This document shows positions 924 to 24,525 of a stretch of 24,805 bases of DNA, piece after piece (the stretch's first letter is position 1; the number at the start of each line of letters is the position of its first letter). The stretch lies in the IMG/VR virus record IMGVR_UViG_3300034280_000403, positions 1 to 24,805 of that record, one strand, 5' to 3'. The notes below the pieces were generated by a model, which had not been told where the DNA came from, did no database searches, and saw only the letters and a program-made list of their open reading frames with translations. The position numbers and the translations under genes are program-made. This stretch comes from a virus.

Positions 924-1225
924 TCCACGTACGCGAGACCATCGTCCGCATGACCGCCGACCTCGTGCCACCGGGCGCGCAGGCGTGGGTCGGCGAGCAC
1001 GCCGTCGAGGTGGCCGTGCGCTGCCGCTGGCAATGGCAGCAGGCGCGGCTGGCGCTCCTTGACTGGGAGCCGTTCCTGCTGCGCCAGGACGGCGTGGACG
1101 TCGTGCCGGGTGCGGTCCCCGACGGGATGCCCGCGCAGCAGATCGTGAACGCCGTCTACTCTCGCGCCATGCGCGAGCTGCTTGAGGCCGAACCCCCGGA
1201 GATCGAGCGGCCATGCGCTACCTGA
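920..1225 (+). CDS. Hypothetical protein, 101 aa
   Basis: Starts at a GTG overlapping the previous stop (GTGA) with a GAGG site upstream, which indicates translational coupling. The ORF stays open further upstream, but that part is only the other frame of the preceding gene. The protein is rich in W, Q and acidic residues, has no signal peptide or membrane segment, and shows a W-Q-W-Q-Q-A-R-L stretch near the middle. Its 3' end overlaps the methyltransferase start by 13 bases. I do not recognise the family. Confidence 0.65.
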   Translation: MIHVRETIVRMTADLVPPGAQAWVGEHAVEVAVRCRWQWQQARLALLDWEPFLLRQDGVDVVPGAVPDGMPAQQIVNAVYSRAMRELLEAEPPEIERPCAT

Positions 1226-2673
1226 GCGTCTGCAGCGGCATCGAAGCCGCGAGCGTTGCGTGGCACCATCTTGGCTGGGAGCCCGTGGGCTTCAGCGAGA
1301 TTGAGCCGTTTCCCGCAGCGGTGCTGAAGCATCGCTTCCCGCACGTCCCCAACTACGGGGACATGACCAAGTTTGAGGAGTGGCCCATTGAGCCAGGAAC
1401 AGTTGACCTTCTCGTGGGCGGAACGCCATGCCAGTCATATTCAGTCGCCGGGCTGCGGCAAGGACTCGCAGATCCGCGAGGAAGCCTCATGCTCACCTAC
1501 CTTGCGATTGCTGCTCGGCTCAAGCCTCGATGGGTTGTCTGGGAGAACGTACCCGGGGTCCTGTCATCGAACGGAGGACGGGACTTTGGCACCTTCCTCG
1601 GGGCGCTGGGGGAACTCGGGTATGGGTGGGCCTACCGAGTGCTGGACGCTCAATACGTGCGAGTGGGGCGATGGCCCCGAGCCGTCCCGCAGCGCAGACG
1701 CCGGGTGTTCGTCGTCGGTCGCCTCATTGAGCGAGGTGCTGGAGACTGGGCCTCTGCCGCCAAGGCTGTCCTTATCCCCGAAGGCCTGCGAAGGCATAAT
1801 CAGGCGAGCCCAAAGGCGCGGAAAGGCGTTGCCCCCGATGCTGAAGGCGGCGCTCGAGGCGGTTGCCCAAGCGTCAGTCCGTGCCTAAAGGCACGTGATT
1901 ACAAAGGCCCCAGTAGCGATGGCGATGGCGATGGCGCTCCACTGATTGCGCAACCGACCGACGGGACGCTCGGCAATCGTGGCCTGCGGTCGCACACGGA
2001 ACGGGATGGGCATGGGGCATACATCCCGGTCGCACAGCCTGTCCCCTACGACCCGTTCCAAATCACCGCTCCGGTCAACAGGCAGAACCGAAAGCCCGGT
2101 GACCCGTGCCACACGCTTGCGAGGGACAACGCGGCCCATGCGGCGATTGCCATCGGCACCGACTGCTACAACGGCGCGATTACGGGCGACGTCGCGGCGA
2201 CGATGGGCACGCCCGGGAGCAGCGTCAACGCATCCGGGCCGACCGTCATGCAGGCGGTGGCGTTCAAGACCGGCAACAGTGCAAAGGCACGAAGCAATGC
2301 CGAGAGTTCGGAAGTAACGCCAACGCTTGGCTCGGATGCGGGCGGGAACACCATTCCTGCGGTGGCGTTTCACCCGTTGCAAGATCCCATCAGCAGCACG
2401 GACGGATCGACGCATTGCATGGGGACAGGCGGGTCGCAAGGCCACGCGAGCATCGCGGTGGCAACCGCCATGACCGTGCGTCGTCTTTCGGCGGAAGAAT
2501 GTGAGGCACTTCAGGGATTTTCGCGGGGGTGGACGCGCATCCCGTGGCGCGGCAAGCCCGTCGAGCAATGCCCGGACGGCCCCCGGTACAAGGCGCTGGG
2601 GAACTCGATGGCGTGTAATTGTATGGCTTGGATAGGCGAGAAAATTGCAAAGTGGGAGGCTGACCATGCGTGA
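1213..2673 (+). CDS. C5-cytosine DNA methyltransferase (Dcm-like phage type)
   Basis: The 486-aa product transfers a methyl group from S-adenosylmethionine to C5 of cytosine in a specific DNA site. Visible motifs are the SAM-binding C-S-G-I-E-A (7-12), G-G-T-P-C-Q (69-74, catalytic Cys73), E-N-V-P-G (111-115) and Q-R-R-R-R-V-F (160-166). The C-terminal L-S-A-E-E-C-E-A-L-Q-G-F and A-L-G-N-S-M segments correspond to motifs IX-X. Between about residues 175 and 420 lies a long low-complexity target-recognition region with loosely repeated P-T-L or H-T-L and G-rich units. The ATG at 1213 has GGAG upstream and overlaps the previous gene by 13 bases. No matching restriction endonuclease lies nearby, so self-protection of phage DNA is the likely role. 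All catalytic residues are intact. Confidence 0.92.
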   Translation: MRYLSVCSGIEAASVAWHHLGWEPVGFSEIEPFPAAVLKHRFPHVPNYGDMTKFEEWPIEPGTVDLLVGGTPCQSYSVAGLRQGLADPRGSLMLTYLAIAARLKPRWVVWENVPGVLSSNGGRDFGTFLGALGELGYGWAYRVLDAQYVRVGRWPRAVPQRRRRVFVVGRLIERGAGDWASAAKAVLIPEGLRRHNQASPKARKGVAPDAEGGARGGCPSVSPCLKARDYKGPSSDGDGDGAPLIAQPTDGTLGNRGLRSHTERDGHGAYIPVAQPVPYDPFQITAPVNRQNRKPGDPCHTLARDNAAHAAIAIGTDCYNGAITGDVAATMGTPGSSVNASGPTVMQAVAFKTGNSAKARSNAESSEVTPTLGSDAGGNTIPAVAFHPLQDPISSTDGSTHCMGTGGSQGHASIAVATAMTVRRLSAEECEALQGFSRGWTRIPWRGKPVEQCPDGPRYKALGNSMACNCMAWIGEKIAKWEADHA

Positions 2674-17701: not shown

Positions 17702-18736
17702 TCAGGCGGTGACGTCGGCGACGAGGTAGCCCGACACGGGCGCGACCACTTCGGTCGTGCTGTTGTCGATCACGCGGCCCTCGATGCGGCGGTCCTTCGG
17801 GTCGTCCCAGTTCTCGACGGTCATGTCCTCGAAGGCCATGATCTGCACGGTCGAGAAGCTCGTCGAGCCCTCGACGCCGATCAGGCCGCCGGGGCGGCTC
17901 ACGAAGACGGCCGAGTTGCCGTAGATGTACTGCCGGGTCGTGCTCGACGCGCCCTTGCGGGTCGTGACGCGCACGCTGTCGTCCACGACCACCTGCACGC
18001 CGAAGAGGTTCGGCGGGAGGCCGTACATGGCGAACGTGTCCGAGCCCTGCAGGAAGGGCATGGCCGCGGGGTAGTTCTTGACGTAGTCACGAACCTCCGA
18101 GGTCTGCGAAAGCAGGTTGGCGACGGTCGGGGAGATGACCATCATCACGTCGTACTCGGCCCGCACCGCACCGCCCGTGGTGAGCGAGATGCGCTGCAGG
18201 ATGCCCTGGATTGCCTTCTGGATGACGTTGGTCGTCGAGGTCGTCCACACGCCGCCGCCGGGGCTGGCCGTTCCGGTCGCCGCGTAGTTGCCCACCGCGT
18301 TGAACGTCGCCGAGGTCGTCAGCGCGGTCGCGGTGCGGATGCAGCGGCCCGTCATGGCCAGCTGCGCCTTGGCGCGGGCGTGCTGCGCGACGATGTCCCA
18401 GGCGGCCTGCTTCACGGTCTCGTTCGGGATGTAGAACGGGTACGCGTAGCGGGCGCAGGCGAACTGCACGAAGTCGTGCTGGTTCGTGGAGCCGACCGGA
18501 CGGTCGTTCCCCAGCGGCCACTGGAAGGCGTTGATGTCCGTGATGCGGACGTTGTCGTCCGAATCCAGGCGCAGGTAGTACCCGGTCATCTGGTTGACCG
18601 GGACGATCTGCGCGTACTTGGTGATGGGGAACGTGTTCACCGCACGGGTGAACTCGACCTGAAGAGCGCCCGTTGCGAGGGCGTTGGTGGACGGGACGTA
18701 GGTGTTGAGCCCGCCACCGACTGCGACGTAAGCCAT
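17702..18736 (-). CDS. Major capsid protein (HK97-fold, predicted), 344 aa
   Basis: The subunit builds the icosahedral head. The protein has typical capsid features: an N-terminal arm, an E-loop-like part with N-Q-M-T-G-Y-Y-L-R-L-D, a helical P-domain (V-K-Q-A-A-W-D-I-V-A-Q-H-A-R-A-K) and a later segment with D-V-M-M-V-I-S-P-T-V-A-N-L-L. After that comes the A-domain part with P-P-N-L-F-G-V-Q-V-V-V-D-D-S-V-R-V-T. It ends in strands. It follows the protease and decoration genes and has the strongest ribosome site in the window (AAGGAGGT). No long delta domain precedes the arm. The motif V-G-G-G-L-N-T-Y-V-P (6-15) is shared with the protease/scaffold protein. Confidence 0.88.
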   Translation of the reverse strand: MAYVAVGGGLNTYVPSTNALATGALQVEFTRAVNTFPITKYAQIVPVNQMTGYYLRLDSDDNVRITDINAFQWPLGNDRPVGSTNQHDFVQFACARYAYPFYIPNETVKQAAWDIVAQHARAKAQLAMTGRCIRTATALTTSATFNAVGNYAATGTASPGGGVWTTSTTNVIQKAIQGILQRISLTTGGAVRAEYDVMMVISPTVANLLSQTSEVRDYVKNYPAAMPFLQGSDTFAMYGLPPNLFGVQVVVDDSVRVTTRKGASSTTRQYIYGNSAVFVSRPGGLIGVEGSTSFSTVQIMAFEDMTVENWDDPKDRRIEGRVIDNSTTEVVAPVSGYLVADVTA

Positions 18737-18742
18737 TGTGTG

Positions 18743-18750
18743 ACCTCCTT
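18743..18750 (-). promoter_or_regulatory. Strong Shine-Dalgarno site of the capsid gene
   Basis: AAGGAGGT, fully complementary to the 16S rRNA tail, six bases before the ATG at 18736. It fits very high expression and fixes the capsid start. Flanking GACCT/AGGTC could form a small hairpin that includes the site. Confidence 0.8.
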
Positions 18751-18761
18751 AAGGTCAGGAA

Positions 18762-19148
18762 TCAGGGGATCGCCCGAGTCGAGGGCAGACGGTACGCCCA
18801 GAAGATCTGCCCGCTGGCAGCCGCTTCAAGGGCAACGAAGAGGGCCACATGGCCCGCAGTAGTCGTGGCAATCGCCACGCCGGCCGTGGACGGCACGAGG
18901 GCCTGTCCGGGGGTGATGTTGCCGCCGGCCTCGATTTGCACCACGTTCGAGGGCTGGAGGCTGATGGGGTCGCCAGACGTGGCGTTTGCCGTCGCGTCAA
19001 AGCGGCGGGTGGAGCCATCAGTCACGCCGACGACGTAGTCGCCGACCGCGGTGGCGGCCACGCCCTGGAAGGCGGTCGTGTCCATCTTGACGATGCGGTA
19101 CGGGTTGATGGTCCCGCCCGCGACGAGGTTGGGGGAGAAGTTCAGCAT
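18762..19148 (-). CDS. DUF2190-like head decoration protein, 128 aa
   Basis: A small all-beta protein with the DUF2190 pattern: G-G-T-I-N-P-Y-R-I-V-K-M-D, V-G-D-Y-V-V-G-V-T-D-G, V-V-Q-I-E-A-G-G-N-I-T-P-G-Q-A-L-V-P and A-L-E-A-A-A-S-G-Q-I near the end. Members of this family decorate capsids. It lies directly upstream of the capsid gene, as is usual, with an AGGA site before the ATG at 19148. Good match by pattern. Confidence 0.75.
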   Translation of the reverse strand: MLNFSPNLVAGGTINPYRIVKMDTTAFQGVAATAVGDYVVGVTDGSTRRFDATANATSGDPISLQPSNVVQIEAGGNITPGQALVPSTAGVAIATTTAGHVALFVALEAAASGQIFWAYRLPSTRAIP

Positions 19149-19169
19149 GGTGTCCTGTGTCCTTGCGCC

Positions 19170-19796
19170 TTAGCGCTTGTTGATGCGGGAGTTGATCGCC
19201 TTGGCAAACTCATCCGGCTTGCCTGCGAACTGCTTGACGAGGTCGCCGACGTCGCCCACGGCCATCGCCTTGGGCATGGCGGCACGGCTCATGTCGATCT
19301 TGGCGCCGATGGGGTCGCGCGCGAACAGCTCGCGCCACGACTCGAGCAGGGCGACCGGGTCCTTGGCGGCAGCGAGCTGCGCCAGGAGCGCGGTGCGCTG
19401 GCCCTCGGGGATGCGGTAGCCCTCCTGCTCCATGATCTCGATCTCACGCGAGAAGCGCTCGCGCTTGACCTCGGCCTCGAGCCGGCCCATGCGGGCCTTG
19501 AGGCGGGCGTTCTCCGAGCGCAGGGCGTAGGTGGAGCGGGAGGCGATGACCTCCTCTTCCTCGTCCATGCCCATCTCGGCGCTCTCGTCGTCGTGGCTGC
19601 CGATGTCAATGTGGACGCCTTCGCCACCCTCCTCGGCCTCCTCCTCGTCGGCCTGGAAGTCCATGCCTTCGCTGGCCATCTCGGCCTTGTCCTCGTCGCT
19701 GTCCTCGCCGAACTTCTTCTTCATCGTGGCGGCCAGGTCATCGATGGCGCACTTCATGGCATCGAGCTCGGCTCCGTAGTCGCGGTCTGAAGGCAT
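19170..19796 (-). CDS. Nested scaffold protein, in-frame internal start, 208 aa
   Basis: The ATG of Met189 of the protease/scaffold gene has AAGGAGGAGG five bases upstream, one of the best ribosome sites in the window. Initiation here would give the scaffold domain without the protease: M-P-S-D-R-D-Y-G-A-E-L-D, a very acidic middle (D-E-E-E-A-E-E-G-G-E-G), a coiled coil and a basic C-terminus A-I-N-S-R-I-N-K-R. This mirrors lambda C/Nu3 and Mu I/Z, where a scaffold is translated from inside the protease gene. Internal initiation is inferred from sequence only. Confidence 0.65.
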   Translation of the reverse strand: MPSDRDYGAELDAMKCAIDDLAATMKKKFGEDSDEDKAEMASEGMDFQADEEEAEEGGEGVHIDIGSHDDESAEMGMDEEEEVIASRSTYALRSENARLKARMGRLEAEVKRERFSREIEIMEQEGYRIPEGQRTALLAQLAAAKDPVALLESWRELFARDPIGAKIDMSRAAMPKAMAVGDVGDLVKQFAGKPDEFAKAINSRINKR

Positions 19797-20360
19797 GGAA
19801 GCCTCCTCCTTGATTGCTGCCGGGACGAAGGTGTTCAGCCCGCCCCCGACCCCGGCGAGGTCGTGGTTGGACTTCGAGAAGGTGATCTTTCGGCCGGCAC
19901 GCTCAAAGTGCGTGTCGGGAAGCGGGCGCCGTGGGGTCTCGCGGCCCAGCAGCGCCACCTCGCTCAGGTGGTTGGATTCGGACCAGATCTCAGCCGAACG
20001 CCTGGGGAAGGCGTTGGTGGCGATCAAGCGGTCGAAGATGTCCCTTCCCACCTCCATGTCGCCCACAATGTACCCGACCCCATCCCGTTCCTCGTATTTC
20101 AGGGCCGGGATTCTGCCGACCGCCGACTTGGGCTCCTTGCCGTCCTTCTCGTGCATGATGACCACGCGGGGGAAGGAGCCCCGGCTCATGTGCTTGCCCG
20201 TGGCGCCGACGATCTTGCGGAGGCGCTCGTTGTCGAAGCGCTTGAGCTCGGGGTCGGCCTTGGCGTCGTCAATGGCGGGGTCGAAGGCCATGAAGAGCTC
20301 GACGCCCTTGATGACGACCTTGTCGCCGGCCTCGACGATGGGGTGGGATGTGGGGGTCAT
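19170..20360 (-). CDS. Capsid maturation protease fused to scaffold (Mu gpI-like), 396 aa
   Basis: The N-terminal domain (1-165) resembles Mu I-type head proteases, with R-V-V-I-M-H-E-K-D-G (65-74) holding a likely catalytic His70, the strand G-V-G-Y-I-V-G-D-M-E-V (94-104), and F-P-R-R-S-A-E-I-W (118-126) holding a likely catalytic Ser122, then S-E-V-A-L-L-G. A linker with V-G-G-G-L-N-T-F-V-P (171-180) leads to an acidic, coiled-coil scaffold domain (189-396; L-R-S-E-N-A-R-L-K-A-R-M-G-R-L-E). Such fusions cut themselves and neighbours during head maturation. ATG at 20360 overlaps the upstream stop (ATGA). Family by motif, catalytic residues inferred. Confidence 0.72.
   Translation of the reverse strand: MTPTSHPIVEAGDKVVIKGVELFMAFDPAIDDAKADPELKRFDNERLRKIVGATGKHMSRGSFPRVVIMHEKDGKEPKSAVGRIPALKYEERDGVGYIVGDMEVGRDIFDRLIATNAFPRRSAEIWSESNHLSEVALLGRETPRRPLPDTHFERAGRKITFSKSNHDLAGVGGGLNTFVPAAIKEEASMPSDRDYGAELDAMKCAIDDLAATMKKKFGEDSDEDKAEMASEGMDFQADEEEAEEGGEGVHIDIGSHDDESAEMGMDEEEEVIASRSTYALRSENARLKARMGRLEAEVKRERFSREIEIMEQEGYRIPEGQRTALLAQLAAAKDPVALLESWRELFARDPIGAKIDMSRAAMPKAMAVGDVGDLVKQFAGKPDEFAKAINSRINKR
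19802..19811 (-). promoter_or_regulatory. Internal ribosome binding site for the nested scaffold
   Basis: AAGGAGGAGG encodes K-E-E plus part of the next codon in the protease frame, and sits five bases before the ATG at 19796. Confidence 0.7.
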
Positions 20361-20716: not shown

Positions 20717-22816
20717 TTACGCCGTGTAAGAGCCGGATGCGTTGAAGGTCAGGATCGTGTCCGAGCCGCTGGTGGTTACGGTCGGGCTGCCCGTGGTCGT
20801 GCCGCTGTAGTTCGCGGTCGCCATGCGGAGGATGACCACGCCTGATCCGCCTGCCGATGAGTTGCTGCTATTCACATAAAACGCACCGCCGCCGCCGCCG
20901 CCGCCCGTGTTGGCTGAACCCGCGACAGAGTTGCCTGCCGAGCCCGCTCCGCGCCCACCGCCGCCGGAACCGCCTGCACCGCCCGCATCTGTGATAGTGC
21001 CATACGGGACGGCACCTCCACCACCGCCGCCACGAACCACGGCGCTGCCGGAGATGCTGCTTGATGTCCCAGCGCCTCCGGCGCCACCTACGCCGTTCGT
21101 ACCCGCTGCCCCGGCAGCAGACGCACCGCCGCCGCCGCCGCCGCCGCCGGGATATCCGCTCGCTCCAGCGCCTCCGTTGCTTCCTTGTCCGCTCGATCCT
21201 GCGCCGCCAGCGGTTGCTGAGTATCCGCCGCCGCCGCCGGAACCGCCCGCACCGCCCGCATCTGTTCCGCCGCCGCCGCCACGTCCACCTCCTTCAGCGG
21301 TAATCGTGGTGATGCCAGTTCCAGACACCGAGGAATCGTTGCCCTTGATTCCGAGCGAACTTGCAGAAGGTGCCGCCGCGCCTGCTCCGACTGTCACAGT
21401 CACCACATTGCCCACGGTGAGCGAAAGTCCCGTGGCGGTCTTGTATCCGCCTGCACCGCCGCCGCCGCCCCTCGTGCCTCCTGCGCCCGATCCACCGCCT
21501 GCGACCGTAAGATATTCGACGGAATATGTGCTGGTGCCGCTCTGCGTGGTGGCGTTCGCCGCCGTCGACGGCGACGAGTCGTAGTCCGCGTTCGTCGCCA
21601 CGATGCGGTACTCGTACGAGGTCGACGCCGTCAGCCCCGTGTCGCTGTACGTCGTGGCCGTCGCGCTGACGGTCGTGAGGGTCGAATACGACCCGCTGCC
21701 GCTCGGGCTGCGCCGCTCGATGCGCTGGCCCGTGTTCCCGGTCGACACGTCCGTCCAGGCGAGGTTGATCTGCGACGAGGACACCGCCGTCGCCGTCAGG
21801 CCCGTGGGGGTCGCGGGGATCGTGAACTTGCTTGCCGCGTTGCTGTTGGCGCTGTTGCCTGCCGCATTCGTCGCATAGACGCGGTACTCGTACTGCGTGC
21901 TCTCGGTCAGGCCAGTGTTGCTGAAGGAGGTCGCGCCAGCCGACAGGGTGGTGACCGTCGAGTACGAGCCGCTGCCTGCGGGGCTGCGGCGCTCGACCGT
22001 GTACCCGGTTTCGTTCGTGGCGTTGTCCGTCCACGCGAGGTCGATCTGCGTGGTGCTCGTGGCGGTCGCGGTGAGCGAGGTCGGCGCGGCCGGGACGTTG
22101 AGGGTCGTGACCCCGCCCGTCGCGTTCTGGCTGGCGGCCGTCTTGGAGCTCTCGCCCACCCCGTTGTAGGCGCTGACCCAGTAGTAGTACACCGTGCCGA
22201 TGGCCGGGGGCGCGGACGGGTTGTTCGTCGCGTTGTCGGTGTAGGTCTGCACGCCCGCGCCGAGGGTCGACAGCAGGGTCGCGCCCGTCGTGGTGTTCGT
22301 CGTGTTGCGGTAGACGTAGAACCCGGTCTCGTCGGTCGATGCGTCCGTCCAGGTGATCGTGACCGCGACCGCCGTGGTGCTGGCGCTCGCACTGACCCCG
22401 GTCGGGGCCGTTGGGGCCGACGCCGCCTGCGTCGTGGCGTTCGCCGTGGCGCTTGGCAGGCTGCCGCCGAAGCAGTTGTACGCCGTCACGCGGTAGTAGA
22501 ACTGCGTAGCCGCGGGCAGGCCCGTATTGCTGAGCGAGTTGCTCGTGGTGCTGCCGATGCTCGTCCAGGAGCCAAGGCCGTCCGGGGACCGCTCCACGTC
22601 GTAGTACGACGCCTGGTTGGGCGCCGGCGTGGCGTCGGCCGTCCAGGCGAGGTTGATCTGCGAGCTGCTGACCGCCGTGGCAGTCAGGCCGCTGGGCTGG
22701 TTGGGCTCGGCCGTGGCAAGGCACTTGCCCGACGAATCGTCCTGCACGCCCAGCAGGAGCGCCGACGTCGCCGCCCCGGGCAGGCGCGGACGGGATGGTC
22801 GTGCGGCGCGCTGCAC
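20717..22816 (-). CDS. Surface protein: four fibronectin-III domains plus glycine-rich domain, 699 aa
   Basis: After about 39 residues there are four Fn3-like domains at about 40-129, 136-232, 243-333 and 335-425. Most show T-G-L-T-A-T-A, then I-N-L-A-W-T-D, and Y-E-Y-R-V-x-A-T-N near the end. A glycine-rich domain (433-699) opens V-E-Y-L-T-V-A-G-G-G, has long Gly tracts, and ends V-V-I-L-R-M-A then D-T-I-L-T-F-N-A-S-G-S-Y-T-A. Fn3 domains on phages are surface-exposed and may bind sugars or cells. It lies among head genes, far from the tail fibre, so a head decoration or accessory fibre is likely. GTG start at 22816, one base after the upstream stop; domains 3 and 4 are the most alike. Confidence 0.85.
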   Translation of the reverse strand: MQRAARPSRPRLPGAATSALLLGVQDDSSGKCLATAEPNQPSGLTATAVSSSQINLAWTADATPAPNQASYYDVERSPDGLGSWTSIGSTTSNSLSNTGLPAATQFYYRVTAYNCFGGSLPSATANATTQAASAPTAPTGVSASASTTAVAVTITWTDASTDETGFYVYRNTTNTTTGATLLSTLGAGVQTYTDNATNNPSAPPAIGTVYYYWVSAYNGVGESSKTAASQNATGGVTTLNVPAAPTSLTATATSTTQIDLAWTDNATNETGYTVERRSPAGSGSYSTVTTLSAGATSFSNTGLTESTQYEYRVYATNAAGNSANSNAASKFTIPATPTGLTATAVSSSQINLAWTDVSTGNTGQRIERRSPSGSGSYSTLTTVSATATTYSDTGLTASTSYEYRIVATNADYDSSPSTAANATTQSGTSTYSVEYLTVAGGGSGAGGTRGGGGGAGGYKTATGLSLTVGNVVTVTVGAGAAAPSASSLGIKGNDSSVSGTGITTITAEGGGRGGGGGTDAGGAGGSGGGGGYSATAGGAGSSGQGSNGGAGASGYPGGGGGGGGASAAGAAGTNGVGGAGGAGTSSSISGSAVVRGGGGGGAVPYGTITDAGGAGGSGGGGRGAGSAGNSVAGSANTGGGGGGGAFYVNSSNSSAGGSGVVILRMATANYSGTTTGSPTVTTSGSDTILTFNASGSYTA

Positions 22817-23409: not shown

Positions 23410-24525
23410 TCAGATTTCTCCTCGGCGCTTCATGTCGAGCGCGATTGCGACGGCCTGCTTCTGGGGCTTGCCCTCGGCCATGAGCTTGCGGATCTTGGCG
23501 CTGACGGCGGGGTCGGACTCGGCCATGACCTTGCGACCGGGCTTGTCGGCGGCAGCGTGGGTGGACTTCGCGCCAATGCGGGAGGCCATGAGCACCGTGG
23601 CCTTGAGGATCTTCTCAGGGCCGCCGCCTTGTCCCTTGAACCAGCCCTTCTTGAGCATGGTGTCGGCCCATTGGCGTGCCGCGCTCTCGGTTGCGAAGAG
23701 CAGGTCGTCCTGCATCGTGACGGGCGGGCCGCCGAGGTACTGATCCTTGCCAAGCTGCCGGGTGTAGGCCACGCGCCACTTGTATCCGGCCTTGCGCTGG
23801 ACGTCCGTCAGATCCATCTTCGCCTTCGCGCCGGGGCGGGAGTTCAAAACTGCGGAGATTTGCGAAACGGCGTCCGCAGCCTCCAGCCAGTCCTGCTCCT
23901 TCAGGTCGCGGGCGCGCACGCGCTTCAGCCAGTTTTCGGCGTCCATGCGGGAGGACGCATCGCTGACCCGGCGGGCCTCGTCGCGCAGGTACTCCAGGTC
24001 TTGCACGACCTTGCGGCGGTTGACGGCCATCTTGGCCTTGACGCCCGGTCGCATCGCACGTCGCTTCGCGGGGGCGGAAGCACCGACGCTTCGGCTTACC
24101 CGCTCCAGCATGGCCTTGACGTTGGGATGCGACCAGTTGACGTCGCCGCCTGCCCAGATAAACATCTCGTTGGGCACGTCGTCGCGGACGGCCGTTTCCA
24201 TGTTGTAGGCCGAGCGCAGCAGGGTTGCCTTGTCCCCGCGCTGTGCATATTCCAGCGCGTTCTCGAGGCTCCCAGCGTCGTCCCCGTACATCTGCCGCAT
24301 GCCCGGATCACGCTCCTGTGCCGCATAGGCCAGCCGCTGCTTGATCGCCTTCTTCAGCTCGTTCATCGCGGCGGCCGAAGGCCTGCCCTGCTTCCTGATG
24401 AAGTCGACGGCAGCGCGGTACTGGCTGGGGACGTCGCCCCAGATGCCGAACTTGGCCTTCGCCAGCGGTTCCGCGAGGATGCCCAGCCGCGCCTTGATCT
24501 CGTTCCGGGTGCTCATGCCGCCCAT
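23410..24525 (-). CDS. Hypothetical protein with C-terminal K-Q-A-V-A-I-A-L motif, 371 aa
   Basis: ATG at 24525 has AAGGAGG nine bases upstream; a second ATG three codons in is less well placed. The protein is helical, basic and Met-containing, with short proline-rich breaks (R-R-A-M-R-P-G-V-K-A-K-M then S-R-P-G-A-K-A-K-M, two similar R-P-G-x-K-A-K-M segments). A Trp-rich section holds W-A-D-T-M-L-K-K-G-W-F. The end, L-M-A-E-G-K-P-Q-K-Q-A-V-A-I-A-L-D-M-K-R-R, is a short C-terminal module seen on various phage proteins. It follows the MuF-like gene; function unknown. Confidence 0.65.
   Translation of the reverse strand: MGGMSTRNEIKARLGILAEPLAKAKFGIWGDVPSQYRAAVDFIRKQGRPSAAAMNELKKAIKQRLAYAAQERDPGMRQMYGDDAGSLENALEYAQRGDKATLLRSAYNMETAVRDDVPNEMFIWAGGDVNWSHPNVKAMLERVSRSVGASAPAKRRAMRPGVKAKMAVNRRKVVQDLEYLRDEARRVSDASSRMDAENWLKRVRARDLKEQDWLEAADAVSQISAVLNSRPGAKAKMDLTDVQRKAGYKWRVAYTRQLGKDQYLGGPPVTMQDDLLFATESAARQWADTMLKKGWFKGQGGGPEKILKATVLMASRIGAKSTHAAADKPGRKVMAESDPAVSAKIRKLMAEGKPQKQAVAIALDMKRRGEI

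Follow-up and report, generated by a model that had tools for sequence, protein, structure and literature searches.

A ten-residue peptide shared by a predicted protease/scaffold linker and the capsid N-arm of uncultured tailed phages is a candidate prohead protease site

The prohead protease of phage T4, gp21, acts on one site that is shared by its own processing and other head proteins, and in lambda (C/Nu3) the protease gene contains an internal start from which the scaffold is read. In the annotation of phage Mu, scaffold Z likewise begins at an internal start within protease gene I; the Mu record also notes that amino acid sequencing has confirmed where capsid protein T begins, an indication that its N-terminus is not trimmed. 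In P2, the protease forms the N-terminal part of gpO (residues 1-141) and the scaffold its C-terminal part; gpO cuts itself and trims the capsid protein gpN by 31 residues (PMC7552001). The protease gp245 of SPN3US uses one A-x-E motif, at which both its own C-terminal propeptide and the N-terminal propeptides of other head proteins are removed (PMC10052503). In 80alpha, the scaffold and the capsid protein share an N-terminal motif that is cleaved in both by the host protease Prp (PMC5744158).

The window, by which we mean the whole stretch of DNA that was analysed, is IMG/VR virus record IMGVR_UViG_3300034280_000403 (24,805 bases, positions 1 to 24,805). Its minus strand carries, in this order, the genes of a protease/scaffold protein, a cement-like protein, the capsid protein and, following the capsid gene, a Mu gp36-like protein (Table 1). 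Translation confirms what a preliminary description of this DNA had reported, namely that one ten-residue peptide occurs in two of these proteins: the protease/scaffold translation, ...NHDLAGVGGGLNTFVPAAIKEEASMPSD..., contains VGGGLNTFVP, and the capsid translation, MAYVAVGGGLNTYVPSTNALATG..., contains VGGGLNTYVP. The two copies are identical at 9 of 10 residues and, again in agreement with that description, at 27 of 30 bases. The motif is absent from the cement/decoration-like protein, and a loose pattern search through all frames of the window revealed only these two copies.

Table 1. Features of the head gene region in the window.
Feature	Coordinates	Strand	Evidence
Protease/scaffold fusion gene, 396 aa	19170..20360	-	H70 and S122 (RRSAEIW) kept in relatives; BFVD fold matches
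Predicted protease domain, residues 1-150	19911..20360	-	AlphaFold2 model and conserved residues
Motif copy 1, VGGGLNTFVP, protease/scaffold residues 171-180, predicted disordered linker	19821..19850	-	
Shine-Dalgarno-like AAGGAGG, upstream of the internal start	19805..19811	-	
Predicted nested scaffold reading frame, in frame within the fusion gene, start Met189	19170..19796	-	M189 invariant, AGGA-like stretch kept
Cement/decoration-like protein, 128 aa, between the protease/scaffold and capsid genes	18762..19148	-	PF09956 (below cut-off), phrog_673
Major capsid protein, 344 aa, HK97 fold	17702..18736	-	Structural model, phrog_29
Motif copy 2, VGGGLNTYVP, capsid residues 6-15, predicted disordered N-arm	18692..18721	-	

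Comparison with the described systems reveals partial likeness to each. As with P2 gpO and gpN, a predicted serine protease and a scaffold are joined in one protein, and one cut is proposed where the two domains meet and another close to the start of the capsid protein. However, the residue at both P2 cleavage boundaries is F, and beyond this the boundaries share little and contain no ten-residue motif; P2 removes 31 capsid residues, as against the ~13-15 predicted here, and no sequence relationship with P2 was detected. SPN3US likewise uses one site for the protease’s own processing and for other head proteins, but its sites are short, of the A-x-E type, and are found in nine proteins, whereas one long motif in two proteins is found here. 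The T4/SPN3US type of site (short x-x-E, in many head proteins) is not matched, since the motif lacks Glu and is confined to two proteins. In 80alpha, as here, one conserved peptide is present in the scaffold and the capsid protein, at the N-terminus of the latter, yet the protease is that of the host, the motif is a different one and both copies lie at N-termini; the L27-like motif of the 80alpha/Prp type is not matched, F followed by A occurring in neither copy. Mu resembles the window, with its predicted internal scaffold start, in having nested protease and scaffold genes, and no motif shared by I and T is visible. Despite this same nested layout no capsid trimming is indicated in Mu, which counts against trimming of the capsid protein of the window. 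The kind of system is already known, while the motif and the family appear to be undescribed in the sources searched; the string GGGLNT was not found in the literature searched.

The motif pair is the best ungapped ten-residue match between the protease/scaffold and capsid proteins. When both proteins were shuffled 300 times, the top score was 7 of 10 (reached in 6 shuffles), and none equalled the real match. Only five pairs of 30-mers in the window agree at 27 of 30 bases; the motif pair is one of them, and the other four lie in a Gly-rich/fn3-like gene (~20.9-22.7 kb) and in a tail gene (~9.3-9.8 kb). The shuffles, together with the conservation in relatives, rule out chance similarity.

A search with the capsid protein yielded 39 loci, and further scans, one of them queried with the motif itself and the last two with other stretches of protease and capsid, raised the total to at least 367, a set from which more distant relatives may be absent. 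The first genome scan returned no relatives and the second two MAG contigs (clades B and C), each with two motif copies; no cultured relatives were found by tblastn in 50,697 phage records. Clustering at 92% identity resulted in 82 representative genomes that fall into four clades, which we name A-D. Both motif copies are present in all 82 representatives, across the four clades and down to ~40% protease identity. The preliminary description had proposed to look for relatives lacking one copy, and none exists among these representatives: the eight protease/scaffold sequences without a linker copy are all cut off by contig ends. The tailed phages that bear the motif form a widespread, uncultured group.

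The consensus of the motif is x-GGG-x-[NS]-x-[FY]-[VI]-P. The capsid copy follows x-GGG-x-[NSD]-x-[FY]-[VI]-P, with the first Gly replaced by Cys in one genome, and the linker copy conforms to this capsid-copy pattern in all clades but C, whose linker copy is shortened to G-x-G-N-V-F-[VI]-P. In clade D, Asn is replaced by Ser in both copies. Counted from the aligned start of the capsid protein, residue 15 is the last of the capsid copy in 342 of 342 scored sequences, partly by construction because the start was taken from the alignment. We note that extra residues before the capsid motif are apparent from upstream DNA in at least two groups (L336/L340 and L220), so the exact length of the capsid N-terminus is not critical. 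The pattern GGGLNT[FYIL]VP was found in no other protein among 224 loci, and looser matches elsewhere in the 367 loci are sporadic. No third substrate with the same motif was found among these loci; the nearest candidate, GGVGFNQFVP, lies in a variable module (L151, L167, L065 and L025) and is not conserved in relatives.

The AlphaFold2 model of the protease/scaffold protein comprises an N-terminal beta domain and C-terminal helices, with residues 146-191 between them at pLDDT < 50. The linker copy is therefore placed by the model between the two domains, as had been proposed from the sequence. Residues H70 and S122 are invariant in an alignment of 70 relatives, and BFVD matches of the model are viral proteins named capsid maturation protease, prohead serine protease and peptidase U9, with low TM-scores over the full model. 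The same model gave no significant match to solved structures in the PDB, and the window protein matched no curated protease family in Pfam, PHROG or NCBIfam; weak matches to curated head maturation protease families were obtained in two members each. Profile comparison with P2 gpO, Mu I, HK97 gp4 and T4 gp21, single sequences that hold too little information, gave no match. The conserved H70 and S122 and the fold matches lead us to predict that the N-terminal part is a prohead protease. The capsid protein matches phrog_29 (major head protein), and its model adopts the HK97 fold with 290 PDB matches at E <= 0.001, those among the matches listed being phage capsid proteins, encapsulin-like particles or BB3626. 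Capsid residues 1-34, which contain the motif, are modelled by AlphaFold2 at low confidence and are presumably flexible.

Met189 of the protease/scaffold protein is invariant in the 70-sequence alignment and lies 5-11 residues past the end of the linker motif. At least five Shine-Dalgarno bases precede this internal Met in 65 of the 82 representatives and four in a further 15, and an AGGA-like stretch is kept in most members even though the encoded residues differ between clades. These sequence features suggest that Met189 is an internal in-frame start for a free scaffold, which would fit a nested gene of the Mu I/Z type. A free scaffold starting at Met189 would be without the motif. Because the motif ends 5-11 residues before this Met, the scaffold part released by a cut in the linker would be nearly coterminous with the free scaffold.

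The linker copy forms an island of conservation, with a mean frequency of the commonest residue of 0.82 compared to 0.51 before it and 0.38 after it. In the capsid protein, conservation drops only slightly past the motif, and the motif may therefore simply belong to a conserved capsid N-arm. At positions with the same residue in both copies, synonymous codons agree in 39.3% of cases within genomes and in 39.7% between genomes. As codon agreement is no higher within than between genomes, the peptide is the object of selection, and gene conversion or a nucleotide or RNA element is ruled out. It had been expected that the two copies would change together; on a tree of 74 representatives, built with the motif excluded, no strict covariation was found, the independent changes being too few for a significant test. 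Each copy mostly varies on its own, inside a consensus common to both; one Asn/Ser change was counted in the linker copy and five in the capsid copy. Independent changes inside one consensus are as expected for two sites read by one partner, or for two substrates of one enzyme.

A shared recognition role of the two copies is well supported. The preliminary description had offered two readings of the motif, a common cleavage site or a docking peptide; a shared recognition peptide is supported by the conservation in 82/82 representatives, the selection at the peptide level, the predicted disorder and the placement between the two domains, and the same evidence favours cleavage of the two readings. 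We consider that the phage’s own prohead protease probably recognizes and cuts the motif, of which each of its two substrates has one copy. We infer the protease activity, the cleavage at both copies and the bond cut. Head maturation would proceed as follows: (I) the gene would yield the full-length protease/scaffold fusion plus free scaffold from Met189, (II) fusion and free scaffold would join the capsid protein in building a procapsid, (III) the protease would cut its flexible linker at the motif and thereby part itself from the scaffold portion, and (IV) it would cut the motif in the capsid N-arm, with ~13-15 residues being removed before or during expansion. By analogy with P2 and 80alpha, our guess is that the cut may directly follow the aromatic residue (F178/Y13). 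Most prohead protease sites are shorter than the stretch conserved here, which speaks against the cleavage reading. The motif is a concrete and long candidate for a cleavage site in a phage group that is common but uncultured, and cleavage, if it occurs, would also confirm a protease assignment missed by curated families.

Cleavage by the phage protease appears likelier than its main rival, docking, in which both copies bind one partner and stay uncut there; such a role is possible but doubtful. It would account for the length and strictness of a motif that lies in flexible parts of both proteins, for an N-arm that is nearly as conserved past the motif and for the capsid copy ending at residue 15 in all scored sequences (partly by construction). 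However, the predicted nested scaffold carries no motif, so that the motif would not be needed for scaffold-capsid binding; clade C tolerates a three-residue deletion within the linker copy, and the extra residues in L336/L340 and L220 also argue against docking. In a variant based on mimicry, the linker would imitate the capsid N-arm and bind in the groove that this arm fills on adjacent capsid subunits, so that the protease would sit in the wall of the procapsid. That the N-arm stays uncut and the protease linker is a molecular mimic docking the protease at the arm’s lattice site strikes us as unlikely; if true, protease loading and arm placement would compete.

Cutting could also be restricted to the linker copy, the capsid copy being a structural arm held by the protease as an uncleaved pseudo-substrate, from which the likeness of the linker to the arm would follow. 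The nested I/Z layout of Mu, which comes without evidence of capsid trimming, is in keeping with this proposal, but the proposal explains one consensus in both copies across all clades less simply than does shared cleavage, and we regard it as improbable. It is very improbable that a host protease cuts the motif while the phage protease acts elsewhere: the motif shared by the scaffold and capsid protein of 80alpha and cut by Prp offers a precedent (PMC5744158), yet the phage encodes its own predicted protease, which itself bears one copy, and the F|A bond cut by Prp is found in neither. The identity of 27 of 30 bases in the window would agree with the absence of any shared function, the likeness then stemming from recent duplication, gene conversion or a common nucleotide element. 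This is hardly credible, since the codons of the two copies drift independently and both copies persist in all clades despite a divergent surrounding linker; as the main cause, these processes are refuted by the codon and persistence tests.

Other genes of the window and its relatives deserve brief mention. A domain ~47% identical to the cement-like protein is found inside 600-residue proteins of the relatives L030 (ORF from 74) and L038 (ORF from 1262), in both cases upstream of the protease. The gene at 20717-22816 (minus strand), two genes upstream of the protease and within the head module, encodes a product whose sequence looks like a set of fibronectin-like repeats with a Gly-rich tail behind them. 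The product of 23410-24525 (minus strand) is a modular protein in which unrelated modules are connected by a recurring linker, SRPGAKAKM/SRPGAKATAAKP, with copies in the window near 24054, 23841 and 23583. Its C-terminal helix is constant, and its relatives contain up to six linkers and quite different modules. On the opposite strand, the reading frame at 1213-2673 (plus strand) reads like a DNA cytosine methyltransferase.
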